From Leptotrichia hongkongensis (GTDB lineage Bacteria > Fusobacteriota > Fusobacteriia > Fusobacteriales > Leptotrichiaceae), in NCBI RefSeq assembly GCF_007990635.1, contig NZ_AP019846.1, positions 2,108,001 through 2,172,000 on the forward strand: a stretch of DNA of 64,000 nucleotides. Direction: 5' to 3'. Of this stretch, positions 904 through 28,261 are shown in pieces. The translations under genes were made by a program, and so were the position numbers. The notes below the pieces were generated by a model. It searched no databases. It was not told where the DNA came from and saw only the letters and a program-made list of their open reading frames with translations. The first letter of the stretch is position 1, and the number at the start of each line of letters is the position of its first letter.

Positions 904-2814
904 TTATTTTGAAAATGGAACAAAAGATTCCTGTTTCAAAGTTTGGATAATTTCATCAACTGATACGTTTTTACTGTCTTGTGAACCAAATCTTCTTACA
1001 TTTACTTCGTTGTTTACAACTTCATTTTTACCAATTATTAGTTGAACTGGTATTTTTTGATCTCCGTTTGCTTCTCTGATTTTGTATCCAATTTTTTCTA
1101 CTCTTGTGTCAAGCTCTACTCTGATTCCTGCATCTTGAAGTTTTGTAAACAATTCTTTTGCGAAAGGCACCTGTTCGTCAGAAATTGTCAGGATTCTTGC
1201 TTGTACTGGCGCTAGCCAAGTTGGGAACGCTCCTGCGTAATGTTCAATCAAGATTCCAATAAATCTTTCCAAACTTCCGTACATTGCCCTGTGAATCATT
1301 ACTGGCTCATGTTTTTCACCATCTGCACCTATATAGCTCATTTCAAATCTTGCTGGAAGGTTAAAGTCTAACTGGATTGTTCCACATTGCCAAATTCTTC
1401 CGATTGAATCTTTCATCTTAAAGTCGATTTTTGGTCCATAGAATGCTCCATCTCCAGGATTTAGCTTGTAATTAATTCCTTTATGTCCCAAAGCTGATTT
1501 CAAGTTTGCTTCAGCCATTTCCCATATTTCGTCTGAACCTATTGCTTTATCAGGTTTTGTTGATAATTCAATGTGGTATTCAAATCCGAATACAGTGTAA
1601 AATTTATCATATAAATCAATAATTTCGATAATTTGTTCCTCAATTTGCTCTTTCGTACAGAAAACATGGGCATCATCCTGTGTAAATGCTCTAACTCTCA
1701 TAAGCCCATGTAAAGCTCCACTAAATTCGTGTCTGTGAACAAGCCCCATTTCTCCATATTTCAATGGCAAATCCTTGTATGAATGCAAGTTATTCTTGTA
1801 GGCAATTATTGAACCCGGACAGTTCATAGGCTTTATTGCATACTCTTTTTCATCAATTGTTGATGTATACATATTTTCACGGTAATTGAACCAGTGTCCA
1901 GAAATTTCCCACAATTCCTTATCTAGCATAATTGGAGTTTTTATTTCCTGATAACCTCTTTTTTTATGCTCAACTCTCCAGATTTCCTGCAATTTATTGA
2001 ATAATTCCACACCTTTTGGCATAAAGAAAGGGAATCCAGGCCCATGCTCGTCCACAAAGAACAAGTCAAGCTGTTTTCCTAATTTTCTGTGGTCTCTCTT
2101 TTCAGCTTCTTCCATCATTGTCAAATAGTCATCCAGCTCTTTTTTTGTTGCAAAAGCTACTCCGTAAATTCTTTGAAGCATTTTATTGTTTGAATCTCCA
2201 CGCCAGTAAGCTCCTGCTGTTGACATTAGCTTAAATGCTTTTAGGTAGCCAGTCGATGGAATGTGTGTTCCACGGCATAAGTCTATAAATTCACCTTGCT
2301 GATAAATGCTAACTTTATCTGCACCCAGGTCTTCAATTATCTCAACTTTGTAAGTTTCACCTTTTTCAGCAAAGAATTTTTTTGCTTCTTCGGCAGTCAT
2401 TTCACTTCTTTTAAATTCATAATTTTCTTTTACAATTTTTGTCATTTCCTCTTCAATTTTGGCTAAATCTTCTTCAGTAAACGGTTTTTCAGGGTCAAAA
2501 TCATAAAAAAATCCATTTTCAATAACAGGCCCTATCGTAACCTTTGTATTTGGGAAAAGTCTTTGCACAGCCTGAGCCATAATATGTGCCGCACTGTGTC
2601 TTATAATTTCTATCCCTTTTTCACTTGTATTAGTAATTATTTCAATTGTTCCAGATTTGTCAATAATATGAGATGGATCAACTTGCACACCGTCAATTAT
2701 CGCCCCAACGGTTGCCTTCCCAAGACTGCTCCCAATACTTTTTGCAAATTCTACAACAGTCATAGGATTTTCCAACTGTCTCTTACTACCATCAGGCAAA
2801 ATCATTTCTATCAT
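904..2814 (-). CDS. thrS: Threonyl-tRNA synthetase
   Basis: This 636-residue protein has the full class II ThrRS architecture. An N-terminal TGS domain spans about residues 1-62. The tRNA-editing domain follows, with the HxxxH-type motif in 'IRHSAAHIMAQAVQ' (about 71-84). The class II catalytic core carries motif 2 'VHRHEFSGALHGLMRVRAF' and motif 3 'MIHRAMYGSLERFIGIL', and the C-terminal anticodon-binding domain starts near 535. It charges tRNA-Thr in the cytoplasm. The start used has an AAGGA site about 6-8 nt upstream; a second in-frame ATG three codons later is possible. A consensus promoter lies at 2884-2912, and the leader is only about 60 nt with one hairpin, so the T-box often found before thrS in Firmicutes is absent. 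Confidence 0.97.
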   Translation of the reverse strand: MIEMILPDGSKRQLENPMTVVEFAKSIGSSLGKATVGAIIDGVQVDPSHIIDKSGTIEIITNTSEKGIEIIRHSAAHIMAQAVQRLFPNTKVTIGPVIENGFFYDFDPEKPFTEEDLAKIEEEMTKIVKENYEFKRSEMTAEEAKKFFAEKGETYKVEIIEDLGADKVSIYQQGEFIDLCRGTHIPSTGYLKAFKLMSTAGAYWRGDSNNKMLQRIYGVAFATKKELDDYLTMMEEAEKRDHRKLGKQLDLFFVDEHGPGFPFFMPKGVELFNKLQEIWRVEHKKRGYQEIKTPIMLDKELWEISGHWFNYRENMYTSTIDEKEYAIKPMNCPGSIIAYKNNLHSYKDLPLKYGEMGLVHRHEFSGALHGLMRVRAFTQDDAHVFCTKEQIEEQIIEIIDLYDKFYTVFGFEYHIELSTKPDKAIGSDEIWEMAEANLKSALGHKGINYKLNPGDGAFYGPKIDFKMKDSIGRIWQCGTIQLDFNLPARFEMSYIGADGEKHEPVMIHRAMYGSLERFIGILIEHYAGAFPTWLAPVQARILTISDEQVPFAKELFTKLQDAGIRVELDTRVEKIGYKIREANGDQKIPVQLIIGKNEVVNNEVNVRRFGSQDSKNVSVDEIIQTLKQESFVPFSK

Positions 2815-3069: not shown

Positions 3070-5151
3070 CTATTCCACCCCTAAAGCTTTAAATACAGCA
3101 TCTTCTGCCGTGGAATAGAATATCAGGTTGAAAGCTCCGATTAAATCTGATGGTACAGATGCCAAATCTGATGCTGAAGTTATTGGCAACAGTATCTTTT
3201 TTGCTCCTGAATCCAGACATACCTGTAATATATTTGCAAGTTCAGATATTTTTATTATTGTTCCACCTATACTTAAATTTCCTAAAATTACTGCACTTGA
3301 AACAACAGGTTTATTCAGTGCAGCCGAACAGATGGCAACTAAAGTAGCTAATGTTAAATCTGAAGTCATTCCTATCCCTTTCATGTCTTGATAATTAACC
3401 ACATAGTCATTATTCACTGTGCTTATACTTCCACTTATGGACTTCCCATTAGCTTTTAAATATTTAAATGCTGTTTCAGCAGCTTCTTTGGCATCCCGAT
3501 TATTTCCCAGCCCTGTTTTTTCAAATTTTCCTGTTCCTTTTGTTATCTGTGTTTCAATTTTAAACAATCCTATCATTCCATTTTTACCATGAGAAACAGT
3601 ATATAGATGTCCTGCTTTCCCAACTCCTTCCGGAATAAGGCTTCCGCTGCTCTGTTCAGGAACAGATACATATTCTTCATTAAAATCATCATTGCTTATA
3701 TAGGAGAAATTCACATCATAAAATTCCATTCCTCCTATTTTCTTAAGCTGTTCTTTTACTCTCCTTCTCATTTCAAGTGAAAATCTTAAAATTTTCTCAA
3801 CATCTTTCTTTTTAAACTTTCCATGAGGATAAACTAATTTTATCATTCCTGAAACTGTTCTTTTTACAGCTATAACATCCCTCTGATTTAACTGATTTCC
3901 AAGTCTAAAATATTTATCATGAGCATCCGAATATGAAATTTTACGTAATTCCCGCATTATTTCAGCATAGTAGTCTGTTATAAAACCATAATTGTCAGTA
4001 AAAAATTCAGGCCGGTATTTTGGAATTTCCCATCCTGGTAAGTAGCAGTGCATTCTGTCTAAAAATGCCGTATCTTGTCCCATTACATCTGGAAAAGGAT
4101 CAAATAAATGGGAAGTTTTTAAAAGAATATCTACACTCTGATTTATATTTCCAACAAAAACCATTCCTGCAGTAGCATTCTTTTCTTCCTTTCCTCTGGC
4201 AAATGAACCTGAAGCCATATAATCCTTCATTATCTGAACTCCATCCTGATCCTTGAACTTTATTCCAGCAACTTCATCAAATGCAACACAATCCCATAAT
4301 CCTACCAGACCCATCGTCCCTTTTCCCATATTATAAAATAAATTTGCCACCGTTGTCTGTCCTCCGGATACAAGTATACTGTTAGGACTTATTTCCTTAT
4401 AAACATGCGATTTTCCTGTCCCACGAGGCCCTAATTCACAAAAATTATAATTATTTTCTACTAATGGGATTAATCTTGCCAAGTGAAGCCATTTCACTCT
4501 TTCATTGAATTTATCAGGTTCCATTCCTGTACTTCTTAAAATAATATCTATCCATTCCTCATCAGTAAAATTTTCTCTCATCTGCTTAAATTCTTCAAAG
4601 TCAATTTCAGGCATCTGTACTGGTGTTAATTTTCTTATTGTGACTGGATTTCTATTCTTGTCTCCTTCATCATAAAAATATTCCAACTGTACTATACTCC
4701 AGATACCTCCTCCAAGCAGTCTTTCATATTTTGATGGATAAGCATCAGATATTGGTATCCCTTTTAATGCCAGATTTGAAAATTCTGCTTCGTATCTATT
4801 TTCTCTTAAGTTAAGTTTTACTGTAACTTTATCTATTACAGTATAAGATGCATTTTCTCTTAATTTTGATTTTATTTTTTCTGCTTCATCTGGTCTGACA
4901 TAATTTTCAGCCAGTATTTTTTTAACTGTCTTCAATCCCTCTTCTATATCTTCATCATTTGTAGAAGAACAGTACATCCCTAGCAGATATTCCAATACAT
5001 AAACCGGAACATTTGCTCCTTCTTTTATTTTTTTTGTCAAATCCTTTCTGACAATTTTCCCAGAAAAATATTTATATAATTTTGTATTTATTTCCTCTAT
5101 GTTTTCATTTTGTTTTTCATCTGTCACTTTTCTATTATTTACATCTTCCAT
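3070..5151 (-). CDS. brxL: BREX protein BrxL (AAA+/Lon-like)
   Basis: A 693-residue protein of the BrxL family, the last gene of type 1 BREX operons. The AAA+ core has Walker A GPRGTGKS (about 241-248) and Walker B CVAFDEVAG (about 288-296). The C-terminal ~170 residues resemble the Lon protease fold, including 'VILGNLSIGGTI' near 620, although BrxL proteins are better known as DNA-binding ring ATPases than as proteases. The partner genes lie upstream on the same strand; pglZ ends only 42 bp away, so the two are co-transcribed. Length and domain order are normal and the frame is intact. In known type 1 systems BrxL is needed for phage restriction but not for host methylation; that role is carried over from the family. 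Confidence 0.94.
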   Translation of the reverse strand: MEDVNNRKVTDEKQNENIEEINTKLYKYFSGKIVRKDLTKKIKEGANVPVYVLEYLLGMYCSSTNDEDIEEGLKTVKKILAENYVRPDEAEKIKSKLRENASYTVIDKVTVKLNLRENRYEAEFSNLALKGIPISDAYPSKYERLLGGGIWSIVQLEYFYDEGDKNRNPVTIRKLTPVQMPEIDFEEFKQMRENFTDEEWIDIILRSTGMEPDKFNERVKWLHLARLIPLVENNYNFCELGPRGTGKSHVYKEISPNSILVSGGQTTVANLFYNMGKGTMGLVGLWDCVAFDEVAGIKFKDQDGVQIMKDYMASGSFARGKEEKNATAGMVFVGNINQSVDILLKTSHLFDPFPDVMGQDTAFLDRMHCYLPGWEIPKYRPEFFTDNYGFITDYYAEIMRELRKISYSDAHDKYFRLGNQLNQRDVIAVKRTVSGMIKLVYPHGKFKKKDVEKILRFSLEMRRRVKEQLKKIGGMEFYDVNFSYISNDDFNEEYVSVPEQSSGSLIPEGVGKAGHLYTVSHGKNGMIGLFKIETQITKGTGKFEKTGLGNNRDAKEAAETAFKYLKANGKSISGSISTVNNDYVVNYQDMKGIGMTSDLTLATLVAICSAALNKPVVSSAVILGNLSIGGTIIKISELANILQVCLDSGAKKILLPITSASDLASVPSDLIGAFNLIFYSTAEDAVFKALGVE

Positions 5152-5193: not shown

Positions 5194-7734
5194 CTAAAAC
5201 CCAAAATCATCGGCAAATAATACATCTATCACCATCTTTTCCCTAATTTCTTCGATTTCAGATTCTTTATCCTTTACAATTAAATAATAGTCTTCATTTT
5301 TATTATATTTCTGATTTTTCAAGGTAAATTTAAACTTCTTTATTCTTTTTTTAGTCTCTCCTTCTTCACTGTCTGCCTTATAGCTTTCTATATTTGAAAT
5401 TATATTATCATTCCCATCAATAAAGAAAATTGCAAATTCTGAAGGTTTTATAATATCTGTAATAGCTTCCTTCTGTAAAAATTCTAATGAAATTGCAAGA
5501 CTTGTTATTTTTCTTACTTCAGATATTAGACTTACCTTCACCTTTTCAGTATCTACCGCTCCTTTGGCAGTTCTAACTTTTACAACAGGAACTAGCATTT
5601 CATGTAATGAAATTCCTCCATGATAGTAATTCTGCCCACCACCACTTACTTTAAATATATTTGAAGTATTAGGAGAAAGCACTTTCAGAGTTTCTTTTTC
5701 ATCGTTTAAAATTTTGGAAAGACCAATTTCATTTACTCCTATAATATTATAATCCTTTTCAGTAATTATATATCTCTTATTTATAATGTCATTTTCATCG
5801 AAAGAATTTTCTATTTTATCAAATTCTTCTATTTTTCTTCTTTTGTAAATAAATCCATGATCTGAAGTAACTATTATATTGTTAATTGATTCTACTCTCA
5901 ATTTTTTTATGAGGTTCATAATTTCATCCAAAGCCTCGTGACAGGCATCAAACACTTCATCTTCAGTATTTGCCTTGTCACCTCTGGCATCTATCTGATT
6001 ATGATATATATACACTTTCTTTTTATTCCTGAACATTTCCCTTACTTCATCTTTTGTAGCTTTAAAAACTTTATCAAAATCAAGTGCTACCGAATCTTCA
6101 TCATATTCCTTCATTATCTTTTCCCTTTTTACTCTGTCATTACATACTTTTCCATCTACAAGTACTTTAAAATCCTTTTCAGATGTTTTTATTTCAATTT
6201 TTTTATGTGGAAGTAATGAAGCCATACCTAACTTTGTAATAGAAGGAAGTATGCTCATCTGACTTTCCATTTCAGCATTCATTTTTTCATCTTTATTCAT
6301 TTTTCCGACTAATTCTTTTGCCACTTCATATCTAAAAGCATCTGAAATTATGACTACAATCCTATTTTTATTTGTTTCCACATAATTCTTATAAAAATTT
6401 TTCTGTAATTTTATTTCTTCTGGAAGATTATTATAATCCAGAAGTTCATTAAACTTTATATTTAATGGATTCAGAAAATCATCTGTATATCTCAGTTCAA
6501 TTATTTTTGCCAGTTTTTCGTATTTTTCACTTTTTTCCACCAGCTTATCATAATAATAGTAAAATTTTCTGTAATATGTATCAATCCAGTAATATTCATT
6601 ATCATATGCTTTTATTAATTCGTGTATATTCCCAGAAAAATTAAATCCTGTATTTTTTATACTATTGTATGCATATTTTAATACCTTATATTCTATTTTC
6701 AAACTGTCATTGTCATTATTATTTTCCTGTCGTAATTTTATTATCTCCATAATGGATTTATCCTGCAATTTTGCTGAAAAATTTTCATCACATATTCTTT
6801 CAGCTATCCATTCTGTTATCTTTTCATCAGGAAAGTCAAAAATATCAAGTTCAAGAATATGTTCAGGTAAAATATTTTTAAAATATTTATCCTGCTTTAT
6901 GTGTGAATATACTTCTGAAACAAGATTTTCAAAATCATTTCTATATTCAGAAATTTTTCGTAACTTGTTCAAAAATATTATAACTGTACTTTTCACATTT
7001 AATTTATTATATTTTTTTGGCATTTCTTTCGTAATTTTTTCAAATGTATAAGTCAAAAATATTCCAAGTAACAGTTTAGTTAAATTAGGTTCATCATCAA
7101 TGTATCCAAATTTCAATCTGCACATATCCCAGAATTTTTCTTCAAGATTATATTTTCTAAATTCTGCAAGATATCTGCTTTCCTTTCTGTTGGCATCTGT
7201 AATTAAAATTCTTGTAATATCTTCAAAACCGTCAAATATTTCAGCTTTTGAACCAGTAATTGCCCTCATCAGGATAATTTCCATATCTTCTCTTTTTGAT
7301 GGTTTACTGTCATTAACCAGTTTTTCAAACTTTTCCCTTCTGTCCTTCGCTTCAAAAAACTTTCTATGCTCTTCCATTACTCCTTTGAGTTCATCGTTTA
7401 TTTGCAGATTCTGAGCCATTATGGAAATCCAGTCTGTTAAAAACACCTTTGAATACATTATTGTGTCAGCAAGATGATTTTCCCTGTTTTCACCTCGTTT
7501 AAATGGAGCATATATTAAATAATTTGTTTCCTTTTCCTGTCTTTCAAGAAGTATTTTTGTTTTAAAAAGCTCATCCTCACATAATACAAGCAGTTTTGCA
7601 TTTTCCAGCTGCAATCCTTCAATTTCTGACAAAAATTCCTGTTTTTCATCATACCAGAAAACAAGTCTTCTTCCTTCTTTCTTAAATTCACTATTAAGTG
7701 TATCTGTAATTTGTTCTAAATTCAATTTTCTCAC
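5194..7734 (-). CDS. pglZ: BREX type 1 phosphatase-like protein PglZ
   Basis: An 846-residue PglZ-domain protein with an alkaline-phosphatase-superfamily core in its C-terminal half. Visible metal-site motifs are VIISDAFRYE (about 461-470), a candidate nucleophile Thr in 'LPSITKLGMASLLP' (about 497-510), YHNQIDARGD (about 577-586) and TSDHGF (about 623-628). PglZ is a core BREX component required for defence and usually for methylation. It is followed by brxL after 42 bp. Unlike compact BREX operons, it is separated from pglX by a 4.7-kb accessory cassette, so its transcription may depend partly on the promoter at 8616-8644. The frame is intact. A poly-Thr/AT-rich stretch of about 80 bp separates it from the GNAT gene upstream. 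Confidence 0.95.
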   Translation of the reverse strand: MRKLNLEQITDTLNSEFKKEGRRLVFWYDEKQEFLSEIEGLQLENAKLLVLCEDELFKTKILLERQEKETNYLIYAPFKRGENRENHLADTIMYSKVFLTDWISIMAQNLQINDELKGVMEEHRKFFEAKDRREKFEKLVNDSKPSKREDMEIILMRAITGSKAEIFDGFEDITRILITDANRKESRYLAEFRKYNLEEKFWDMCRLKFGYIDDEPNLTKLLLGIFLTYTFEKITKEMPKKYNKLNVKSTVIIFLNKLRKISEYRNDFENLVSEVYSHIKQDKYFKNILPEHILELDIFDFPDEKITEWIAERICDENFSAKLQDKSIMEIIKLRQENNNDNDSLKIEYKVLKYAYNSIKNTGFNFSGNIHELIKAYDNEYYWIDTYYRKFYYYYDKLVEKSEKYEKLAKIIELRYTDDFLNPLNIKFNELLDYNNLPEEIKLQKNFYKNYVETNKNRIVVIISDAFRYEVAKELVGKMNKDEKMNAEMESQMSILPSITKLGMASLLPHKKIEIKTSEKDFKVLVDGKVCNDRVKREKIMKEYDEDSVALDFDKVFKATKDEVREMFRNKKKVYIYHNQIDARGDKANTEDEVFDACHEALDEIMNLIKKLRVESINNIIVTSDHGFIYKRRKIEEFDKIENSFDENDIINKRYIITEKDYNIIGVNEIGLSKILNDEKETLKVLSPNTSNIFKVSGGGQNYYHGGISLHEMLVPVVKVRTAKGAVDTEKVKVSLISEVRKITSLAISLEFLQKEAITDIIKPSEFAIFFIDGNDNIISNIESYKADSEEGETKKRIKKFKFTLKNQKYNKNEDYYLIVKDKESEIEEIREKMVIDVLFADDFGF

Positions 7735-7813
7735 TCCATGACTTTTTATATTTTTAAATAAAAAGCCTCATTTATTTCTTTTTAAATAAAAGAGACTTAT
7801 AAAATCTTTATTT

Positions 7814-8415
7814 TTAAAAATTATCTAATCTTAGTATCATTGTTTTTAAGTTATTTTCTGAACTGAATTCTTTTATCAGATTAAATCCATAATTTGAATA
7901 AAATCTTATTAGTGAACTGTTATCTTCACATTCTAACCATAAATATTTTGTATTTATAATTTTTTCACGATTAATAATAATTCGTGTGCCAACGATATTA
8001 TTTCATTACCTGTTATCATATTTTTATCAGAAATATTATAATTTTTCCCTATTTGTGCCAACAAAAAACTGTTTACAACATAACTTCCATCTTTCAATCT
8101 TCTTCCACTCTGTGAAAATCTTTTCTGTTGTGTCCTACTAAGATTAAGAAAATTTTCTTTTTCAATAATTAAACTTTTATTTGCAAATGTAAAATACCCC
8201 AATATTTCCGTTCCCTCTTTATTGTAAATAATATGTGTCGCAGAAAGTGATTTTTTCTCAAAATCTATAGCTTTATTATGTAAAAAATCCTCAATACTAT
8301 TTCTATCTCTACTTCTAAAAGTCTTTAAAATTTTTTCTTTTATAAAGTCATCGTCTTTCAATTTTTCTCTTAATTTCTGCAACGATATAGTTTCACTCTT
8401 TTTCTTTATATCCAA
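7814..8415 (-). pseudogene. GNAT-family acetyltransferase, possible toxin, frameshifted near the C-terminus
   Basis: The first 153 codons read in one frame and stop at 7954. Adding one A to the A6 run at 7960-7965 joins them to a second frame that ends at 7814 and encodes 'KYLWLECEDNSSLIRFYSNYGF', the typical GNAT C-terminal strand and FY..YGF motif. The joined protein would be about 200 residues, with the GNAT core starting at 'THIIYNKEGTEILGYF'. It overlaps the upstream 60-residue ORF by 23 bp, the arrangement of antitoxin-then-GNAT-toxin pairs that acetylate aminoacyl-tRNA. Toxin function is inferred from context only. As written, the last beta strands and part of the acetyl-CoA-binding half are lost, so it is probably inactive unless the run slips. 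Confidence 0.75.
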
Positions 8416-8575
8416 AATTCTTTGCTATCCTCAAAATTTCTTCTGGGTCATCCACTATTTCAAAATCAACATCAAGTTTTTTAACTTTCTTTTTACTCTC
8501 CATTGCTTCCAGTACTTCATCTGCATATCTTGCAGGAATTCTCAAAGCATCAAGTAATATACTTTCTGTAGCCAT
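8393..8575 (-). CDS. Small acidic protein, probable antitoxin partner of the GNAT gene
   Basis: A 60-residue protein starting MATESILLDALRIPARYADEV. The start at 8575 is preferred over an upstream in-frame ATG at 8611 because an AAAGGGAG site lies at the right distance before it and the upstream residues are a low-complexity KIKLKKGR run. I do not recognise a named family. A short helical N-terminus, then a charged KKKVKKLDVDFEIVDD stretch, fit a small DNA-binding or toxin-binding antitoxin. It overlaps the GNAT gene by 23 bp and has its own consensus promoter at 8616-8644. The antitoxin label is inferred from size, overlap and partner. Confidence 0.6.
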   Translation of the reverse strand: MATESILLDALRIPARYADEVLEAMESKKKVKKLDVDFEIVDDPEEILRIAKNFGYKEKE

Positions 8576-8615
8576 AATTACCACTCTCCCTTTTTTTAAC
8601 TTTATTTTCATTTTT

Positions 8616-8644
8616 ATGATACCATATCTATTTTAGAGTGTCAA
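8616..8644 (-). promoter_or_regulatory. Promoter of the small-protein/GNAT pair
   Basis: Minus-strand TTGACA (8639-8644), a 17-bp spacer and TATCAT (8616-8621) form a near-consensus promoter inside the BREX operon. It should drive the pair and, by read-through, pglZ and brxL. Confidence 0.75.
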
Positions 8645-8674
8645 TTAGATTTCAATCTCTTTCTAAATAACCTC

Positions 8675-9076
8675 TTATTTAATGCACTTATACACAATAA
8701 CATTAATAATACAAAATATCACTAATATTAAATAAAGTAAAAATCTATTTTTATCAAAAAATCTCGTATCTCCACCTGTTTTCTTTATATTTTCTGACAT
8801 TCCAATTTTAGAAAACTCAAAATAAATCCAGCTACCTAATGTTGACCAGTAAAAAGAAATAATTCCTTCCGATTCAAGCATTATGTAAAACCAAAACTGA
8901 TATATCATATAAATTATTAAACCTAAAATAATGAACAATAACTCATTTTCTTTTCCTGTATTCTCTTTCGTTTTCTTTCTAAAGTATTCCATAATATAAA
9001 TTATGCCTAAACCCAAACCACCCGTAAGAAATAAAGCAAACATTAAGATTAATCCCATAATTAAATTTATAATCAT
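8675..9076 (-). CDS. Small multi-pass membrane protein of unknown function
   Basis: A 133-residue protein, not recognised. A glycine-rich hydrophobic N-terminal segment (about 3-30) is followed by a basic loop YFRKKTKENTGKE, two hydrophobic stretches (about 46-68 and 74-86), a charged loop, and a C-terminal membrane helix (about 112-130). An AAGGAG site precedes the ATG. An imperfect 30-bp inverted repeat lies just upstream at 9141-9170, matching one in front of the AbiEi-type gene, which suggests shared control. Small membrane proteins inside defence islands can be effectors that damage the membrane, but nothing in this sequence proves that. Confidence 0.65.
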   Translation of the reverse strand: MIINLIMGLILMFALFLTGGLGLGIIYIMEYFRKKTKENTGKENELLFIILGLIIYMIYQFWFYIMLESEGIISFYWSTLGSWIYFEFSKIGMSENIKKTGGDTRFFDKNRFLLYLILVIFCIINVIVYKCIK

Positions 9077-9140
9077 TCTTAAATCTCCTTTCTTTAATAA
9101 TGGTTTTATGTCTCTTTTTATTTAGTTGTCATTGTCCTTT

Positions 9141-9170
9141 TGTCCCAAATTTTGTATAATTTTTGAGACA
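9141..9170. promoter_or_regulatory. 30-bp imperfect inverted repeat before the membrane-protein gene (copy 1)
   Basis: The arms TGTCCCAAA and TTTGAGACA flank a centre containing GTATAAT. It has the same length, arms and GTATAA centre as the repeat at 9831-9860. It lies 65 bp before the ATG of the membrane-protein gene, where a repressor could block transcription. Confidence 0.65.
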
Positions 9171-9241
9171 GTTTACAAATAATATTTCTTTTATATTTTT
9201 ACTATTCATAAATTGCAATATTAATTACAACATTTTCCTAC

Positions 9242-9817
9242 CTATATAATTTTATAAATCCAGGCTGATGCCACTTTTCCTTCCTCAATTAATCTTTCTT
9301 TTTGTTCTTCTGTTAGTTTATTTTTTAAAATTTCTCTATGATCTTCTGTCACTTTATTTTTCCCAATAGTTTTTAATACATGAATAACTATGACTGTTTC
9401 AATAGATAATATTGGAAATTTACTTATTGTTTCTATCTTTAAACTCTATTACTGTATTTCCAAATGAAAAATCTACATATCTTCCGTCTGATATATATGT
9501 CCATTTGAAAGGTACCTGTGTCGAGAGTCCTAATAAATTTAATGCCGTATTTCCAGAAGGTGCTATTGTCCAGTTATATTTTCTGGCTATTGCCTTAGCA
9601 ACTTCATGAACTGATGAAGCTTCATACTCTTCAATCAGTTCATTGTATTTAGGATTATAATATATTCCTTTTAAAATTTTCTTTATTTTTTCTGAATTTG
9701 TAAGCCTGTTCAATGTTTTTCTTACAGTTTCATAATCAGCAATATCAAGAAAATCAATGGAAATAAATACTTTGTCATTATTAAAATTATCTATTCTATC
9801 CTTTATTTTTTTTTCAT
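9242..9817 (-). pseudogene. DUF6088/AbiEi-type antitoxin, broken by two frameshifts
   Basis: The ATG at 9817 has a good AAGGAG site but is followed by a run of nine A and an immediate stop. One more A would open the frame into IKDRIDNFNNDKVFISIDF and on through LKGIYYNPKYNEL, 'VAKAIARKYNWTIAPSGNTALNLLGLSTQ' in part, and YISDGRYVDFSFGNTVIEF. A second shift at about 9429-9446 is needed to continue to the stop at 9242, giving about 191 residues, the usual length. The winged-helix start and 'ALNLLGLSTQVP' core are typical of DUF6088, related to AbiEi antitoxins of type IV toxin-antitoxin systems. No AbiEii nucleotidyltransferase toxin is next to it, so it is an orphan. A palindrome just upstream (9831-9860) fits autorepression. 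Confidence 0.75.
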
Positions 9818-9830
9818 ACTTCTATCTCCT

Positions 9831-9860
9831 TGTCCTAATTACTGTATAACTTTTGGGACA
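9831..9860. promoter_or_regulatory. 30-bp imperfect inverted repeat before the AbiEi-type gene (copy 2)
   Basis: The arms TGTCCTAAT and TTTTGGGACA surround the centre CTGTATAAC. It ends 14 bp before the ATG of the DUF6088 gene and partly overlaps the spacer to its ribosome site. It lines up with 9141-9170 without gaps, with about three quarters of positions identical. Confidence 0.65.
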
Positions 9861-9955
9861 AAATTGCAAGGGAGGGGTTATTTAATTTGATTGTTTTGTT
9901 TTATTGTATGTTTGCACAAATAACATAAAATTTCAAGAAAAATTATAAAATTTAT

Positions 9956-12472
9956 TTACTTTTTAATCAATCCTCCTATATATTTTTTTTCATTAAGCTG
10001 AAAAGTATTCATAATTCTATCTCGACTTTTATAATCCATCGGATGTGTGGAGCAATGCATTATCAATAAATGTCTCATTAGATTTTCAGCAATTTTTGAA
10101 TAATCATACTCTTTTATTTCATTTTTTATTTCATTTATGTCAACTTCTTTCATATACCACATACGTATACCATGCTTTATAAGAGATATAGCTGGTGTTT
10201 TTTTATCTTTTGATATCTCATTTATTATTTTCATTAGATAATCAGATCCAATAGAATGAATAGTTTTATAAATTATAAAAAATATTAAATTATAACATAA
10301 CTCCCAAAATATTCTCTTAGCAAGTTCTTTAGTATTATTTTTACTTTTAATCTCTAATTTACCTATTCCCTTTTCTATTAACTCTAACATGTACTTTTGA
10401 AATTCTTCATCTTTAATTTGATAAAGTATAAAATTTAATATCCTTAAATTCAATTCTATACTATATAATATCATCTCTTTTAACAATGTTTTTTCTAAAG
10501 AACCAGGTCTATTTTTAGCTAAGTTTCCTATAACTTCTACTGTTCTGATACTTCTTCTAAAATTATAAATGTCTTCATCTTCAATTTCATTATCTGAATC
10601 AACATATAAACTTTCCTCATCAATTTCAGTATTTTCTGAAATTTCTTCTAATTGTATATTTTTTTCTCTTATTTCATTAAAATCATTAACTTCTGGTAAA
10701 AAAATTCCAATATATTATCAAAATTTATATTTATTTCTTTCATTTCATCTATTTTCAAAGTTGTAACTTTACTATTTTCAAATAACTCTAAGGAATTCAA
10801 TAATATTTCTTCAAGTAATTTTTTTCTTTTGAATGATGAGAAATAAAAATACAAATATATGAATTCCTATCTAAATGTAAATTTCTTACTAATTTATTTA
10901 TACTATTTTCTTCTTCTTTATAATGTTCGGACAAATATTTTCCAATAAAGTAATAATATAAATATGGATAGAAAAATTTTATACTTCCCAACGACGTTTT
11001 TTCAATATTTTTGATTTTATTAAACTATTGATTACTTCTTCACTATCAAATACTAAATTAAAGTTTTTTTCATAATTCTCCAAAATTTATCTATATCAGT
11101 TTGATATAATTCATATATATTTTTACTAAATACATAGTAAGATAATTCACTTAAAAAATTTAAATATATATCTATTGCATCATTTCTTATTCCGTTTTTC
11201 CAAAAATTCATTTGTATTAAAAATTGATAGCAATAGCCTTGTGACGTTATTTCTTTATCTAAATTTTTATTTGTTTCAGAATATCCAAGAACAGATAGAA
11301 GAAAAAAAGGATATGCTGGCATAATTCCATTATTAAATATCTTACCTATAGTTGTGTTCAAAAATTCTGTTCTTTTATCATTTTTCTTCATAATTTCATT
11401 TTCATTTGATACTTCGTCTTTCAAATTTGACCATTTTTTTATTAATTCATCTCTTAATTTAGGATCTAATTCCATTCTTCTGTATTTAGAAAAATTTGAT
11501 CTGTCATTTTAAATGCAGAGTGTGTGTGTGATCAGTTAACAATATTATATAATTGAACTTAAGTACATCATTTAGAATTTTATCTTTCTTTTTTAACAAA
11601 TGAAAATCATCAATAATAATAACAAACTTATCTTTTTCATTTTCAGCATTTTCTAAATTTTTATACTGTTTATTTATTATTATTTCTAATATTCTTTTAA
11701 AATTATTCGTTAAATTTTCTGATTGATTTATAAGAATTGGAATATACCCTTCATCAAATAAATCTTTTGTTATTTTTTTGGATAATGTTGTTTTCCCTGA
11801 TTGAGCATCTCCCGATATCATTATATATTTTTCATTTTCAAGTTTTTCACTTATTTTTTCTGAACTAAAAAACTTATAACTATCACTATTTTTTATATCT
11901 TTTTCTATATTTGTCAATTTAGGGTAAACAAATATATCCTCTAAAAAAAGAGTTTCTTTTGCATTATGTGAATTAGATAATATTTCCATACTATTTAATT
12001 CTTCTTTAAAATCTTTTGTAAATTCAAGTTCTTGTTCTTTTTCTTCTTTTAAACTATCTAGCAATTCATTATAACTTTCTTTATTTGTATTTATTTGTTT
12101 TAAAAATAATGCAAAAATCCCCTCTAAAAAATCAGGTAATACGCTAATTTCTGAACCTTGTATAATAGGTATCACTATTTTTGTTTTTTTATTCATATGA
12201 CTTGCTAACAACCTAGCTTCATATGCAACTCCAGTTGGATTATTACCTCTATTATCTGCTCTATTTTTATATTCTGAAGTACAAATAACAAGAATATATT
12301 TTGATTCTCTTATTGATTTCTCCATAAATTCTGTTACTTCATGTCCATGCCTTAATACACCATCATCTATAATGACCTCAAAACCATCTTTTTGTAACTT
12401 ATCCTTTAATTGTTTTACTTGATCTGTATCAGCATCATTTCTACAATATGAAATAAATATTTTCTTTTTCAT
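9956..12472 (-). pseudogene. TIR/SEFIR-STAND NTPase gene in the BREX operon, split by about six frameshifts
   Basis: The intact first part (12472-11504, 322 residues) has a TIR/SEFIR-like domain: KKIFISYCRND at the start, a CTSEY strand, and GVAYEA with Glu85 as candidate catalytic residue. A STAND/AAA NTPase follows, with Walker A GDAQSGKT (about 221-228) and Walker B FVIIIDDFH (about 283-291). The rest survives as shifted fragments: helical sensor-type sequence with KFFYPYLYYYFIGKYLSEHY and IFISHHSKEK, then a C-terminal helical region ending at 9956. Adding one base at each of 11520-11530 (GT repeat), 11472-11473, 11082-11085, 11008-11012, 10819-10825 and 10698-10704 restores one frame of about 840 residues. 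The gene starts 17 bp after pglX. TIR-STAND proteins sense infection and deplete NAD; that role is inferred. Confidence 0.75.
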
Positions 12473-12489
12473 AAATTTATATCCTCCTA

Positions 12490-15400
12490 TTATTTTACCT
12501 TCCCCAATATCTCATACTTCTTCCCATCACGTCCAGTCTGCACTTTCTCATAATTGACTTTCACTCCGTCATCCAAATCAATCGAAATATATTCTGAAGA
12601 CAAGTGATTCATCTTTTCATCAAATTGTTTACATTCATCAAGCTGTGATTTTATCTTTTTTAGCTCCTGCTCAGCTTTTTTTCTGTTGTTATTACTTTCA
12701 ATTTCATCTTTCAGAAAACTTGCCCTTCTTTCATAATGTTTCTGTAGCTCATGCAGATATCCAATTCTAACCTTTGCTGTAGTCTGTTCATTATAACGGT
12801 GCATATAAATCAATGCTTTAAATCCATTTTTCTTTCCTGCATCATAAAGCCAGTAAATTGGTCTTTTTTTGTATCTTTTCAAATGATCTTCATAAAAATT
12901 CTTTAAGAAATATTCTCTTATAATATCTTTTGGAGCATCATTTTTATTAGATAAGGCTTGTGATATAAATTTAAGATTTTCTTCAAGTGTTTCTTCTCCA
13001 TATACTATTTTTACAAATTCTACAAATCTTGTAACAATATCATCACTAAAATATTCACTGTCAGTAATTGGAATACAGTTATCTTCATCGGAAATAAATT
13101 TGCTATATTTATTTTTATCAAATTCTCCTCCTGCAAATACAAGGCCTTCCTCATCAAGCGAATAACGCCCAAACATACATCCGACAGCATAGGAAATAAA
13201 TTGTTTTATTAAAACATTTTTATTAAATTCTAAACTGACTCCTCTATCATATAGATATTTTTCTGACTCACTAGAAAAATTCTTAGGAATACTATTATCA
13301 ATCTCAACAATTTTAGCTTCTTTCTTTAAGATAGTGATATCATCAAAAGAAACTTTTTCATCCATTTCATCTTGTAATTCATAAATTTCAATGAAGAGTC
13401 TATTTAACTCTTCTTCATTTTTATGTAATTGTACAAAATTATCTCTCCAATGAGAACAATAATTTTCATAAGCAGTCTTTAAATCTTTTCTATCAATTAA
13501 AGATAGTTTTTCAAAATCCCAAGAAGTTTCCCTTGAATCCCATTCTTCTTTGGAGATATCTATATTTTGCTGAGCTAAAATATCTATCTTTTCTTTTATT
13601 TCAAAAGATTCTGAAAAGATTAATGGTAATCTTTTTATTTGTTCAGGACCAAATGTTAAAGTAGGAGATAAAAATTTTAAAAGACTCATACTAATAGTAC
13701 TATTTAAAAAACTTGATAGATATAAAAGATAGTTTTCTTTCATAAAACAAGTAGGTCCTGAATTTCCAAATAAAACTCCTTCTGGAACAAACCTATTTGA
13801 AAGTAATTTACTTGATATTTCAGACCAAGTTATACATTTTTTAAAATAATAAATATTATCTCTTAAACGAAAATTATTGTTATTACAATATTTAATTTCA
13901 TAAGAATCATTTTCCATATTTATAACAACTTCTAAATTTCCATACCATTTTCTAAAACTTCCTCCACTTGTTGCAGGAGTCCATTTATAATTTTTTTCAA
14001 TCATTTCTTCATAATTTCTTAACAAAAATCCTATTTTTTTTAGAGAGACTTCATACCATAATCTAGTATATTTCAAATCATTGCCAGTTAGAACTCCTTT
14101 TTTAGTATTACCATATTCACCAAAGAATATATTTTTTTCAAATATTTCTCTTACTTTATCACTTACCCAATAAGCTATAGGGCTTCCTGGTATTTTTTCA
14201 AAATTCTTTTCATTTGTTTCATAAAAATATCCACAGTTTTTGTTTTCTAATGCTTCTAAAACTTTTTTACTTTGAAATTCCATATCGCCTTTATAATCAT
14301 CTAGTCTTATAAATAATCCTTTTGAATCCATTTTTTTAAAATTTCCAAGAACAAATGTTATTACATCAACTGTTGCTTCCTTATAAAATGATCCTTTCGC
14401 AATTTGAATCAAACTTTCTATTTTTTTATCTTCAATAATATATTTTCTTAACTCTTCATATGTTTTTATAAACATCCATACATTCGGTGTCATCCATCCA
14501 GAATATCCATCTTCAACAAGAAAATCAAATGCTCTTACCATAAATACAGAAAACAAATCTCCTTTATAATCCTTATAATTTCCTTCTACAAATTTTTTCA
14601 ATTTTGGATTGTATTTATTCAAATATGGCGGATTAGTACAGACTACATGATACTTATTCTTTAATATTTTTGCAGTTTTTACTATTTGTTTCATTGTTGA
14701 ATATACATTCTCTTTCCATATTTCTCCCATTAAACTTCCTGTATATCTGTCTCTGCATTCATCCAAATATCTATCAAAACTGTCATAATCAAAATTCTCC
14801 ACTTTTATTAGACTTCCTATTTCTCTTGCATCTTCAAATGTTCTTATTAGATATTCTCCAACTTGATTTTGTTTATCATCTGTTGTTACTCCATCAAGAT
14901 AAAAATTTGTTCTCAGCTCATCCATATTTATTTTTTTTGAATTTTCTAATATTTTTTTACTTTCATTATCAAATAACAAATAACTTTCTTCAGTATAAGT
15001 TAAATTAGGAGATATTCCTCTTGTAAAAAATCTCCTATCGTATTCCCTACCTTTTATCATTACTGCGAAGTACGTCAACTGATAAGCTCTTTTATCTATA
15101 TCAAGTCCATAAATATTCTTTTCTATTATATTTTTTACAGCTTCTCTGTCACTATATCCTGCTTCCCTGTAAATTTCCATTAGTATATCAAAAGCATGAA
15201 CCAGTATATGTCCACTTCCCATACAAGGCTCTAAAAATTTTATTTCTTCAGGAGATATTTTTTCATCTATATATGCAATTTCTTCATTTTTAGGAGTTAC
15301 AAAATATTCCAGTTTATCTTTCAGCTTACTGTCAGGATTTCTCTCAATCCAATATTTTCCCAAAGAATTCTGTACCATATATTTTACAACCCAGTCAGTA

Positions 15401-16275
15401 GTAAATATTTGTGTTGCTATTGGTATATCTTCTTTTGCAATAGTACCTTTATTCATTCCGACTATTTCATTTTTTTTCTTTTCATTATAATACTGATAAA
15501 GCCACCCAATAACTTCTACTTGACTTCCAATTCCTTTTTCATCTGATGAAATTCCTATATTATTTGATATTCTTATATTATAAAGTCCTGCTAATCCTAT
15601 CCCATTATTTTTATTTTCATTATTTTTATTTTTTATTTTAAAATTCTCTTCTCCAACTTCATCCACTAACTTTCTCAATATTCCTTCTTCATCATTTATC
15701 GAAATTGGCAAAAGTAACTCTGAATAATCTTCGGCTTCTTCAAATAATTCAGGCAATATTTCATTAAGTTTATTACATCTTTTTATAAATAAAAATTTGA
15801 AGAGCTCTTCTATTTTGTTCTCTTCTTTTAACTTATAAACATTATTTTTTTCATCATTTGAAAATTCCAGATCTGTATCAAATACTTCCCTTATTATTTG
15901 AGGTTCCCTGTCATTTTCTCTGTCAGAAGATAAAATTTTTATTCCATCAGGAATATAATCATTCACTTCCATAAATCTAATAGCAATAATTCTATTAAAC
16001 CAGGTATATGCTATTTCCTCAACAAATTCATTAAAACACTTCTTAAAATCTTCATTTTTTCCTCTTGTTTTTAATACCTCAATTATTTTTTCTCTCTGTT
16101 TGACTTCCTTTTCATTAAATTCCTGTCCATTAATCTTTAAATAATCATCTTCTTTTACAGTTTCTTCTCCTATCCCTTTTTCTGTAATCCCCATCAATTC
16201 CAATTTTCTTTTTATATCATCTTCCATTTTTTCTTTTGCGTTTACTGCAAAATTTCTCAATGCTACTTTGTCCAT
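12490..16275 (-). CDS. pglX: BREX type 1 adenine-specific DNA methyltransferase PglX
   Basis: A 1261-residue protein, normal length for type 1 PglX. Methyltransferase motif I reads FLEPCMGSGHIL (about 348-359) and motif IV is TNPPY (about 547-551), the N6-adenine class signature. A long C-terminal region with predicted coiled coil (about 1195-1230, rich in Glu/Lys) follows. PglX modifies host DNA at a non-palindromic site so the BREX machinery tolerates self; the target site cannot be read from sequence. The start is supported by AGGAGCTATCA before the ATG. It lies 42 bp after brxC and 17 bp before the TIR gene, so all are one transcript. Homopolymer-rich but unbroken, unlike the neighbouring cassette genes. 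No phase-variable repeat is evident inside it. Confidence 0.95.
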   Translation of the reverse strand: MDKVALRNFAVNAKEKMEDDIKRKLELMGITEKGIGEETVKEDDYLKINGQEFNEKEVKQREKIIEVLKTRGKNEDFKKCFNEFVEEIAYTWFNRIIAIRFMEVNDYIPDGIKILSSDRENDREPQIIREVFDTDLEFSNDEKNNVYKLKEENKIEELFKFLFIKRCNKLNEILPELFEEAEDYSELLLPISINDEEGILRKLVDEVGEENFKIKNKNNENKNNGIGLAGLYNIRISNNIGISSDEKGIGSQVEVIGWLYQYYNEKKKNEIVGMNKGTIAKEDIPIATQIFTTDWVVKYMVQNSLGKYWIERNPDSKLKDKLEYFVTPKNEEIAYIDEKISPEEIKFLEPCMGSGHILVHAFDILMEIYREAGYSDREAVKNIIEKNIYGLDIDKRAYQLTYFAVMIKGREYDRRFFTRGISPNLTYTEESYLLFDNESKKILENSKKINMDELRTNFYLDGVTTDDKQNQVGEYLIRTFEDAREIGSLIKVENFDYDSFDRYLDECRDRYTGSLMGEIWKENVYSTMKQIVKTAKILKNKYHVVCTNPPYLNKYNPKLKKFVEGNYKDYKGDLFSVFMVRAFDFLVEDGYSGWMTPNVWMFIKTYEELRKYIIEDKKIESLIQIAKGSFYKEATVDVITFVLGNFKKMDSKGLFIRLDDYKGDMEFQSKKVLEALENKNCGYFYETNEKNFEKIPGSPIAYWVSDKVREIFEKNIFFGEYGNTKKGVLTGNDLKYTRLWYEVSLKKIGFLLRNYEEMIEKNYKWTPATSGGSFRKWYGNLEVVINMENDSYEIKYCNNNNFRLRDNIYYFKKCITWSEISSKLLSNRFVPEGVLFGNSGPTCFMKENYLLYLSSFLNSTISMSLLKFLSPTLTFGPEQIKRLPLIFSESFEIKEKIDILAQQNIDISKEEWDSRETSWDFEKLSLIDRKDLKTAYENYCSHWRDNFVQLHKNEEELNRLFIEIYELQDEMDEKVSFDDITILKKEAKIVEIDNSIPKNFSSESEKYLYDRGVSLEFNKNVLIKQFISYAVGCMFGRYSLDEEGLVFAGGEFDKNKYSKFISDEDNCIPITDSEYFSDDIVTRFVEFVKIVYGEETLEENLKFISQALSNKNDAPKDIIREYFLKNFYEDHLKRYKKRPIYWLYDAGKKNGFKALIYMHRYNEQTTAKVRIGYLHELQKHYERRASFLKDEIESNNNRKKAEQELKKIKSQLDECKQFDEKMNHLSSEYISIDLDDGVKVNYEKVQTGRDGKKYEILGKVK

Positions 16276-16317: not shown

Positions 16318-19300
16318 CTAAAATTCCACTTCCACAATCTCACTGTCTTCCAGTTCTTTTTCCAGTTTTTTTCTCAATTTTTCAAGATAATTTTCTATAT
16401 CTTCTTTGCTTTGTATTTTCCATACTCTATCTTTATTTATTTTAGCAATTCCTATTATTTTTGGTTTCTTTATTCTTATTGGAATTGCTGGACTCTCTAA
16501 TGCATCATCTATTTTTAAGTTTGCTCTTATTTCCTCTTCCTGTCTTTCAAATTCATCAAGAAGTTTACTTTTCAAATTTGAAGCTTCTTTATCAAAAGTT
16601 TCTATTTCCCTTATATTTTCTGACTTTTCAGCATTCTTTAAAATTTCAGAAAAACTTTCTTCAACTTTTTTAGTAAACTTTTCTTTTAATTCTTTATTTT
16701 CCGTATACAGTCTTTCCAATGTTATTTCTTTTATTTCTTTTATTTTATCTAAAATGGGATTTCTTCTTTCAGAAAGAATCTGATTATAATTTTCAGTAAA
16801 TTTTTTATTTAGCTCATTCAAATCCTTAATTTTATTATATGGTTTTTTATCATTCAATATTTTATTTATATCTCTTACAGTTTGTTCAATTTCTACATCT
16901 GAAAAATAATTTTTAGAATCAGCATATTTTTCATATAGTTTAACAGACTCATCCCATATATTTTTCTGTTCTCCAGAAAAAAATTTATCTATAGGCTCCA
17001 TATCTTCAACATAATCACAGTAGTTATCTTCATGTCCTAAAACTTCATCAAATATTTCTCTTGTATCTTTCAATGCGAGTATTCTTTTTAAAAGTTTTTC
17101 TCCATTTTCCAATACATCCTTACCTGGATAATTTTTATTCTTATAGTTTCTTTCCAACTCTTCTATTTCAACAAGTTTTTCCCTTGTCAGCTCTTTAAAA
17201 TCCTTCACCATTTTATCTGTATCTTCTGAATCAATATTTTTTCCAAACAGCTCATCTGCAACATTTTTCATTGCTCTTATACTTTTGCTATCTATCTTTT
17301 CTTTTATTTCAAGATAAACTCTTTCTCCACTGTCTTTTTTTACAATACTTTCTATAATATTTTCAGAAGATTCATTTAACAGGCTTAAGCTGTTTCCATT
17401 TCTTTTAAGCTCTATTTCCCCATCTTTAAATGCTCTTGCAACTATCCATTCAATATCTTTATCATTCCATCCAAAAGGAGCTTTTGAAAAATAATCCTTT
17501 ACTTCCTTTATGTTTATCTTCAGTCCCTTGTCCTTTTTAAGTTTTATATGATTTACAACTTCCTGTATTGCATTTATGTTATCTTTCTTTCTTTCAGCAG
17601 TAATCAAGGTATCTTCCCTATCTTCAAAAATTTCCCTTATATCACTTTCTCCCATAGATTTTGTAATATAGTCCAGTTTGTTATATACTTTATTTACTAA
17701 TTTTCCTAATGCTTCAGTTATCTTAGTTTCATAGTCCTTTGCATTAAGAGTAACATTATTCCCTCCTACATAGTATTTTGCATTTCTAAGGGCATCTTCC
17801 AACATTCGTTCTGAACGCTCTATATGTTCCTTACGCTCTGTACTCTTTTTTTCCTTTATAATACTTCCTTGTGGTAAATCATCAGCCTCTCCTGATTTTA
17901 AGAATTTCTCTATTTTTATATCCATCTCTATTTCATTTATATAAAAACTATTTTCTCCTAAATCAATAAATACTGAATTTTCCTGTGTACTTTTCATTAA
18001 AAGAGAACTTTCATTTCCACTATAATCAGAATTTGGAGTAACTATATTTATACCTATATCATATGTATCTTTACCTCTTGCATTGTCATCAACTTTCTGA
18101 TTAAAGGAGAAAGTATAATCTTTAAATTTAGGTGACTGATATTTTTTCTCTGAATAGAATTTATCAAATATTTTTTCAGAAATTTTTCTCAATATTTCAT
18201 TCATATCCACATCAATTTTATCAATCATTTTCTCTACTTCCTGCTCTTCATTTGTCAGGAATATATATACATCTCCAGATTTTTGTACAAGTGTCTGTTT
18301 TATAAGTACATCTAGTGCTTCCTTAACCTTTTCCTTTAACACTATTCTATCTTCATTTATATCTTCAACCATTAATGTAGTAATATTTTCCAGTGTTCCC
18401 TTTATTTCCTTGACATACTTAATCATAAAAAGAACTTTAAGTACATTCACATTAAAGCAATTTTCTTCATTTTCAGGATTAATATAGCTATTTTTCATAG
18501 CTCCTGTTATAATCACTGAATGTGAGTGATCCAGAAAACTTTGGAGTCCATCATAAAATTTATCAAAGGAAACAAGTATTCCTGTTTCATTTTCTTTATA
18601 TTTTTCTGCTCCTTCTTTAAACATTGCAAGCATCGAACGCTCTCCTTCAGATAAATGTTTTCCACTTGAACTATGTTCACGAATAGAAGTTAGAACATAT
18701 GAAAGTATCTGAAACTGATACGGAATAAAAGGATATACTTCCTGAAAATCTTTTACATCTGAATAAATCTTCTTTTCAATTCCATCATCAAATATAACAA
18801 GATTTTTTATTACCGATTCCTTTTCCGCATAAACTAAAGACAGTTCTTTTTCTGCATATTCATTTTTTTCTAAAATTCTCTTTTTTATAACTTCTGATAC
18901 ATCTGTAGAAGTCAGGCTAATTCTAGTTTTAAATCTACCCTGTATTTTAGAAAAATCATTTCCTTTTACTTTTGTAATAGAGTCTATAGCCTGTTGGGAT
19001 GTTACTACTACCCATGCTTTTCCTTTACAATACACTCCTAAGTCTTCTGTTACAGTTTGCAGATTCAGCATTAAATCAGTATTTTCTCCTATATACTGTC
19101 CAACTTCATCTACAAAAAATATTACATGATGATTATTTCCTTTTTTCTTAATATATTTATCAATCATTTTTGCAAAATCTTCTATCGAAATAGAATAGTC
19201 CTTTTTAGAAGATTCAATCCAGTTATTTGCTTCCTCTTCTGTCATAAATCCTATTTCTTCCAAGGTTTTTTTAACTTTGAAAGTTTCAAAGTTAAAATTA

Positions 19301-20025: not shown

Positions 20026-20604
20026 TTACTTTATGAGCGGAAAAGCTCTGTAATAATTATCATCTTTAAATTCTCCAAATAATTCCAGTGACTGTCCATC
20101 ATATTTTCCTGGATAAAACATCACTACTGGAGATCTATCAAAAATTTGATGCAGATTATTCAATATTTTATGTGAGCGTACAAACGGAAATATTTTTCCG
20201 ACTCCTATCAAAAATACAATGGCTTTCTCAGGTGTATTTTTCTCTATATACTCTGCAAAATAATTATTATCGTCATTCATTCTAAGTAAATCATTTACAG
20301 ACTCTACAAGATAGTTCATTCCATCATTTTTTTCCATTTCAAAGCAGTCTTCCAGATATCCTTCAGATTCAAGCAAGTCAATCATCAAGTCATACACATC
20401 ATAAACTTTCAGTTTATATCCATCACCAAATTCCTTATCCTTTTTTACCAACTTATCAATATATTCCCTTACAAGAATTTCATCTTTAGGATCATAATCA
20501 AAAACATAATATGAAACTTCATTCCCAAGTCCTTTGCCATTTAAAAAAGAAGTTTTTCCTATTTCACTTTCGATTTTCCCTAAATCTATTTCGGTTTTTG
20601 TCAT
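20026..20604 (-). CDS. brxB: BREX protein BrxB (DUF1788)
   Basis: A 192-residue protein of the DUF1788/BrxB family. Recognisable are 'AIVFLIGVGKIFPFVRSHKIL' in the middle and 'PVVMFYPGKYDGQSLELFG' near the C-terminus, the two conserved blocks of the family. BrxB is a core component required for both methylation and defence in studied type 1 systems; its biochemical activity is not established. Its ATG overlaps the brxA stop codon by one base (TAATG), so the two are translationally coupled. The length is normal and the frame intact. Confidence 0.93.
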   Translation of the reverse strand: MTKTEIDLGKIESEIGKTSFLNGKGLGNEVSYYVFDYDPKDEILVREYIDKLVKKDKEFGDGYKLKVYDVYDLMIDLLESEGYLEDCFEMEKNDGMNYLVESVNDLLRMNDDNNYFAEYIEKNTPEKAIVFLIGVGKIFPFVRSHKILNNLHQIFDRSPVVMFYPGKYDGQSLELFGEFKDDNYYRAFPLIK

Positions 20605-27897: not shown

Positions 27898-28073
27898 TTT
27901 TTCTCCTAAATTTATTCTAATACTATTTTCCATTTATCCTAAACTCCGTTTAAAATAAGAATAATTTTTTATAATATAGTTGTTTAACAGCTAATTTATA
28001 ATCATTCAATTAAATTGTTTTTTATTATTTTATATATATCTTGATTAATAAATATTTTTTCATTTTTATTTTC

Positions 28074-28172
28074 GTAGGATTGCTCATTGCCGCAAATCCT
28101 ACCACCTATGACTAGTCTACGACATTTCTCTGCACTGACAAAAAACTCGCTACACTCAAACAGTTTTGTCAG
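28074..28172. repeat. Two adjacent hairpins, one with the CTCGCTA loop (dispersed repeat, copy 2)
   Basis: GTAGGATT (28074-28081) pairs with AATCCTAC (28095-28102). CTGACAAAA (28135-28143) pairs with TTTTGTCAG (28164-28172) around a 20-nt loop beginning AACTCGCTAC and ending ACAG, like the loop at 21477-21506. They lie in the 410-bp gap between birA and the oad terminator; the rest of the gap shows no gene. Confidence 0.5.
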
Positions 28173-28261
28173 CACAGAAAAATTCTTCGACGGATTATTT
28201 ATACTAGGCTTTTTTTGACGAAAATTATATTTTAATTATTTTAAAATACATATAAAAAATC

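Follow-up and report, generated by a model that had tools for sequence, protein, structure and literature searches.

An accessory-gene slot and a hinge shared with type III operons lie between pglX and pglZ of a Leptotrichia type 1 BREX locus

Bacteriophage exclusion (BREX) loci commonly carry additional genes between pglX and pglZ: among about 9000 genomes in which these two genes are co-localised, about 7000 have at least one gene in the interval, and about 5000 have no known defence system in that position (PMC11341690). How do such genes arrive, how are they expressed, and do they serve BREX? We address these questions in a 64,000-nucleotide stretch of Leptotrichia hongkongensis DNA, hereafter the window (contig NZ_AP019846.1, positions 2,108,001 to 2,172,000; G000:C1:2108001-2172000 in our numbering; genome of 2.28 Mb in two contigs), in which the gap from pglX stop to pglZ start on the minus strand measures 4.75 kb (7735-12489). 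The original prediction for this insert was a four-part cassette within the operon that may act as an abortive back-up if BREX fails, or guard the operon. Comparison with two genome sets, 13 from the genus (the window genome included) and 33 from the family, reveals an accessory-gene slot adjoining pglX, and a hinge block adjoining pglZ that is also present in type III restriction-modification operons. Across the closely related genomes a single slot is seen with three different contents and once empty, beside a block common to unrelated restriction systems. Handles of the G and L series are ours.

The type 1 order, brxA-brxB-brxC-pglX followed after the split by pglZ-brxL on one strand, is borne out by profile matches (Table 1). 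Each of the six genes occupies a single frame and all six have colinear matches in three relatives. PglZ is found in four of the 13 genus genomes, those of the window, G008 (95% identity), G002 (75%) and G011 (71%), each time with thrS next to the operon, and in each of these four BREX loci pglX and pglZ are separated by additional DNA that shares both slot boundaries. In G008, G002 and G011 alike, DNA similarity to the window ends no more than 15 bp from the pglX stop and restarts at 9206-9198. Because these boundaries recur in three BREX relatives the insert cannot be put down to chance, which supports its identification as a placed accessory region of the operon. The contents are another matter: the G008 slot carries an intact SMODS nucleotidyltransferase and S_4TM effector (cyclic oligonucleotide-based antiphage signalling system, CBASS), that of G002 a PDC-S32-like open reading frame (ORF), AbiH and HicA/HicB, with AbiH and HicAB intact, and that of G011 is empty, the 9200-side sequence following directly on the pglX stop (a RelB/YoeB-like pair lies past the slot, between the membrane gene and the small ORF). 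The pglX genes of these three genomes are mutually alignable over most of their length at 82-94.5% while their slots differ, so slot turnover is independent of pglX. The position and boundaries of the interval are common to four of four BREX loci, but its gene combination is not conserved: the TIR piece and the DUF6088 gene of the window are each found in none of the 12 other genus genomes, and a conserved four-part cassette is rejected.

Other pglX-pglZ intervals contain GmrSD-family genes (G038, L033, L036), a helicase with an ADP-ribosyltransferase/glycohydrolase-like protein (L031) or a 353-residue ORF (L034); G042, L027, L032 and L035 have no space for a gene there. In L034 (2190-8803) two other ORFs, one AlbA_2/Schlafen-like by eye, split pglX between about residues 677 and 683. 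The DNA identity map shows pglX itself to be conserved at its ends and, over the middle ~2.4 kb (window 13208-15645), to diverge from G008, G002 and G011. One pglX stretch of ~230-330 bp in G002 is unlike both G008 and G011, perhaps through an exchange of specificity. G002 also has a second accessory position, a Shedu (SduA) gene between brxC and pglX (L019:6631-7272).

Past the slot, the hinge consists of the gene for a small membrane-like protein, a sigma70-like promoter, a small ORF, a GNAT-type acetyltransferase gene and a terminator-like hairpin with U-tract. Whole or in pieces (79-97% DNA identity), it lies between mod and res in five family genomes without BREX: the whole block at 89% in G004, two large pieces at 92-95% in G001, and pieces at 79-97% in G081, G012 and G078 (one 31-bp piece at 100%). 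The promoter pattern, with up to three mismatches, is present in nine of the 33 family genomes (reversed-pattern control, 0), and the nine promoter loci all lie between methyltransferase and effector genes, four in BREX (pglX/pglZ) and five in type III operons (mod/res). From the gene orders of the BREX and type III operons it therefore follows that two unrelated systems have in common the order methyltransferase, slot, hinge, effector. The first gene after mod is AbiJ-like in G012 (E 2e-67) and G078 (E 7e-67) and AbiK-like in G081 (E 1e-151), where the match stops at 397 of 544 model positions and the gene may be cut; in G001 it is membrane-like, of no defence family, and in G004 the membrane-like gene after mod is preceded by a 330-residue ORF. 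The type III operon of G001 and G004 also holds an SNF2-type helicase and DUF4391. The original prediction was to fall if its genes lay elsewhere in related genomes, unlinked to BREX. That is partly so, since some genomes that lack BREX also have the membrane-protein/GNAT part, and a BREX-specific GNAT unit is rejected on this ground, but there the part lies inside a type III operon. GNAT paralogues at ~43-51% identity sit elsewhere, some GNAT match being present in 16 of the 33 family genomes. Accessory modules between pglX and pglZ were already known; hinge sharing is the part that we did not find in print, in a search whose coverage left out most subscription papers.

The pieces of the hinge are unequally kept. 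The membrane-like protein is found in seven of the 33 family genomes, two of them over residues 83-133 only. Behind the promoter two types of gene pair occur: a small ORF with a 200-residue GNAT in the window (broken), G008, G001 and G004, with a remnant in G011, and a different small ORF with a 177-residue protein in G012 and G078, the latter protein being judged GNAT-like by eye and lacking a Pfam or PDB match. G081 has both types in tandem, and G002 has kept the second-type small ORF alone. The GNAT gene occupies a single frame in G008, G001, G004 and G081; the G008 relative matches phrog_1758 (E 2e-37) and is 94-96% identical by piece to the window copy, which is frame-broken. In a comparison with toxin-antitoxin pairs of GNAT type (TacAT-like), no recognised antitoxin family precedes the acetyltransferase here. 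What had been called a GNAT pair comprises a small ORF plus one acetyltransferase gene. A 76-bp piece with promoter and leader is 93-97% identical to the window in G002, G012, G078 and G081. The hairpin and U-tract stand ahead of the pglZ or res start in eight of the nine loci, five of which were folded; 98.9% of cells pair, whereas slid controls reach 34-57%. Short inverted motifs (TAAA..GAGAC / GTCTCTTTTAT; window ~9120 and ~7796) bracket the hinge in eight of the nine loci, the left motif being present in nine of nine; they might be marks of a mobile unit.

The module resident in the window's own slot is broken. One of its genes has the TIR/SEFIR domain, P-loop NTPase domain and C-terminal region of a TIR-STAND protein (TIR_2, bSEFIR and PDC-S60 matches), and is colinear over its whole length, at 28-52% identity by piece, with an intact 854-residue PDC-S60/bSEFIR TIR-STAND protein of Lactococcus plasmid pUCCL641D (WP_347449663.1). 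The matching pieces cover residues 2-291, 328-468, 470-505, 494-553 and 599-837 of that protein and lie in frames -3, -1, -3, -2 and -3, which requires four frame changes; a further stop-to-stop piece, read by eye, suggests a fifth. Piece 470-505 matches the Lactococcus protein weakly (E 1.4), a Streptococcus protein giving the better match. Instead of a single ORF the gene thus forms at least five pieces, with the frame shifting among them. Among plasmid records the N-terminal TIR piece has relatives on 118 and the C-terminal piece on six, all below 60% identity; none was found in viral contigs by a scan sensitive to close relatives only. The DUF6088/AbiEi-like gene is split between two frames and has no AbiEii gene beside it, the genome's two AbiEii-family matches lying at C1:1040447 and C2:12464. 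A pair of 33-nucleotide inverted repeats (window 9138-9170 and 9831-9863), 73% complementary, chance level not computed, flanks this gene; nothing convincing was found in the way of direct repeats within the insert. Whole genes within the insert are limited to the one for the membrane-like protein and the small ORF.

Frame breaks of this kind could be assembly errors. As a control, ORFs of three relatives in syntenic stretches were compared with the window, matches at or below 60% identity being dropped; of 63 relative ORFs compared, seven met more than one frame, corresponding to three distinct window genes with GNAT among them. Outside the insert there are two breaks in 26.4 kb, or in 30 kb once pglX (3.8 kb, under the identity cut and one whole frame) is added by hand, against seven in 3.7 kb within the insert. 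Scaled by length the excess has P 5e-6, and scaled by homopolymer runs of at least six, 8e-5; these become 4e-5 and 4e-4 if four rather than five TIR breaks are counted; the control genes being conserved ones, the comparison separates relaxed constraint from uniform error and not from locally poor reads. In our judgement it is unlikely that errors of sequencing or assembly produced the breaks and that the cell has intact insert genes. The insert is AT-rich and its TIR gene has 8.3 such runs per kb, the control 4.7, and two other window genes (24636-25297 and 27155-27933) are likewise frame-broken against three relatives; yet pglX and brxC contain 25 and 21 of these runs and no break, and the excess survives correction for runs even at the lower count. 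The breaks would imply loss of function.

It is very improbable that the insert is a functional cassette, in which a TIR NADase sensor and two toxin-antitoxin units abort infection upon BREX failure. Its TIR and P-loop NTPase domains are still recognisable, G008 and G002 have intact modules of abortive type in the corresponding slot, and accessory genes such as PARIS and BrxU within BREX are known (PMC11341690, PMC8565348). Its position, moreover, is that of a guardian of PARIS or PrrC type, although accessory abortive genes in one frame are found only in the relatives. Against it, the TIR-STAND, DUF6088 and GNAT genes are all broken while the BREX genes are whole, DUF6088 lacks the partner that would make it a toxin-antitoxin unit, and neither the TIR piece nor DUF6088 occurs outside the window genome among the 13 of the genus. 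Of the original prediction's inventory, then, the TIR, P-loop NTPase, DUF6088, membrane-like protein, small ORF and acetyltransferase are all present, while one of the two toxin-antitoxin-like units has no toxin gene next to it and the back-up abortive role of this cassette is not supported.

We regard it as somewhat probable that the locus combines a slot for exchanged antiphage modules with a conserved hinge ahead of pglZ that has a regulatory working. The slot, running from the pglX stop (12489 to ~9200), would receive alternative second-layer antiphage modules by exchange, the resident TIR-STAND and DUF6088 module having decayed, and the slot genes would travel with the upstream half of the operon. 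The hinge (9140-7760) comprises the membrane-protein gene, followed by promoter, small ORF, GNAT and terminator-like hairpin as a unit complete in itself. If brxABC-pglX is taken as the modification half and pglZ-brxL as the effector half, the hinge promoter may start a second, effector-side transcript, by analogy with Salmonella BREX; read-through of the hairpin could then set the effector mRNA level and keep effector low relative to modification, and the small-ORF/GNAT pair may act as regulator or addiction-type guard. A wider proposal is that the hinge, made up of promoter, an exchangeable small-ORF/GNAT pair and hairpin, is portable, bracketed by its inverted motifs, with an abortive-gene slot upstream, common to type 1 BREX and type III and always placed in the modification/effector interval, where it would throttle the effector and permit exchange of halves and of back-up modules; this we put forward tentatively, as possible and open to real doubt.

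Several observations weigh against such a working. G002 lacks both hairpin and GNAT and keeps whole pglZ and brxL, so neither is essential. Covariation in the hairpin is weak, with one double-change pair, a count reached by 241 of 500 shuffles, and the observed pairing plus covariation score was reached by 20 of 500. The sigma70-like promoter scan gave 42 sites overall against 42.0 in shuffles, the hinge site being the top-scoring. A tenth promoter-like site, on contig 4 of G008 (three mismatches), lies outside any methyltransferase/effector operon; it was set aside, having other genes downstream that are phage-like by eye. Searches with the window's small ORF at E 0.05 (Pfam), 0.05 (NCBIfam) and 0.01 (PHROG) gave no family, so that it owes the label antitoxin-like to gene order. 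Finally, the type III loci were located via the hinge itself, so its frequency among such operons cannot be read from them. Alternatively, the slot might be a passive landing place and the hinge only a homologous-recombination anchor for swapping halves, with no regulation or guarding, an explanation that we consider rather doubtful. The sharp identity boundaries, the mosaic pglX, the alternation upstream of thrS of BREX (four genomes, the window's among them) with the type III operon (directly before thrS in G001 and G012), the inverted motifs around the hinge and its broken or reduced genes at several loci are all as that explanation would have it. It accounts less well for the 76-bp promoter/leader piece and the hairpin, which are retained while the genes between them are exchanged or broken. 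A small strain set makes two questions testable, whether the effector half is throttled separately from the modification half and whether accessory modules depend on placement in such a slot.

The thrS neighbourhood is a defence hotspot among the genus genomes. Cas13a and Cas1 lie upstream of thrS in G006 (L131:7096-12230), G003 (L129:5544-9911) and G004 (L135:1537-6659), six further genomes have BREX or the type III operon there, and G010 has a DEAD-box helicase; none of the queried genes was found in this neighbourhood in G005, G007 or G009. A link of the hinge to thrS as a rule is rejected, as thrS is on another contig in G004 and absent from the fetched stretch in G078 and G081. An element of ~300 bp at window 27932-28249 has many dispersed copies in G008, G002 and G011.

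Table 1. Features of the BREX locus and its insert, in window positions
Feature	Position	Strand	Remarks
brxA	20604..21206	-	PADLOC BrxA E 9e-52
brxB	20026..20604	-	PADLOC BrxB E 2e-67
brxC, 1192 aa, one frame	16318..19896	-	PADLOC BrxC E 0 over 1-1190; full-length matches at 73-96% in three relatives
pglX methyltransferase, 1261 aa, one frame	12490..16275	-	BREX_1_MTaseX E 0
Accessory-gene slot	9201..12489	-	sharp boundaries in three relatives
TIR-STAND gene, decayed, ~830 aa, at least 5 pieces	9956..12472	-	TIR_2 E 3e-15; PDC-S60 matched by two separated pieces
DUF6088/AbiEi-like gene, frame-broken	9242..9821	-	PF19570 1-126 and 138-172, two frames
Hinge block	7760..9140	-	common to type III restriction-modification operons; abuts pglZ
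Small membrane-like protein gene, 133 aa, one frame	8675..9076	-	no family match better than E 0.03
Sigma70-like promoter, TTGACA-17-TATCAT, TG preceding second hexamer	8616..8644	-	11/12 match
Small ORF, 63-72 aa, antitoxin-like by position only	8393..8611	-	relatives in G008, G001, G004, G011, G081
GNAT-type acetyltransferase gene, frame-broken near 7960	7814..8415	-	intact 203-aa G008 relative
Terminator-like hairpin and U-tract, just ahead of pglZ	7760..7798	-	kept in 8/9 loci
pglZ, 846 aa, one frame	5194..7734	-	TIGR02687 E 1e-163
brxL, 693 aa, one frame	3070..5151	-	TIGR02653 E 0
thrS	904..2814	-	TIGR00418; downstream neighbour in 4/4 BREX loci

Known systems resemble this arrangement in part. 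BrxU of Escherichia fergusonii pEFER is an accessory restriction gene within type 1 BREX that gives complementary protection (PMC8565348); it sits between brxC and pglX, unlike the window insert, and its analogue is the Shedu gene of G002. The PrrC anticodon nuclease lies inside the EcoprrI type IC locus, so that here too a restriction-modification locus contains an abortive effector; PrrC is reported to sense inhibition of restriction (PMC12707154), and the likeness here is one of gene position. Rakesh and Krishnan (2026) likewise propose that extra effectors within BREX loci back up PglZ (PMC12839542); nucleases are catalogued there, and CBASS, 'TIR domain' and Leptotrichia have no occurrence in its main text. 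Salmonella BREX (StySA/D23580) with PARIS (ATPase + DUF4435) is, like that of the window, a type 1 BREX with an antiphage module in the pglX-pglZ interval (PMC9009780, PMC11341690). The PARIS module consists of two genes, and the portions of these papers drawn on here mention no hinge common to another restriction system, whereas the window has TIR-STAND and DUF6088, both broken. In Salmonella, too, the two halves are transcribed apart: one transcript covers brxA, B, C and pglX, and the accessory genes, pglZ and most likely brxL are on at least one other, which starts inside the accessory genes (PMC9009780).

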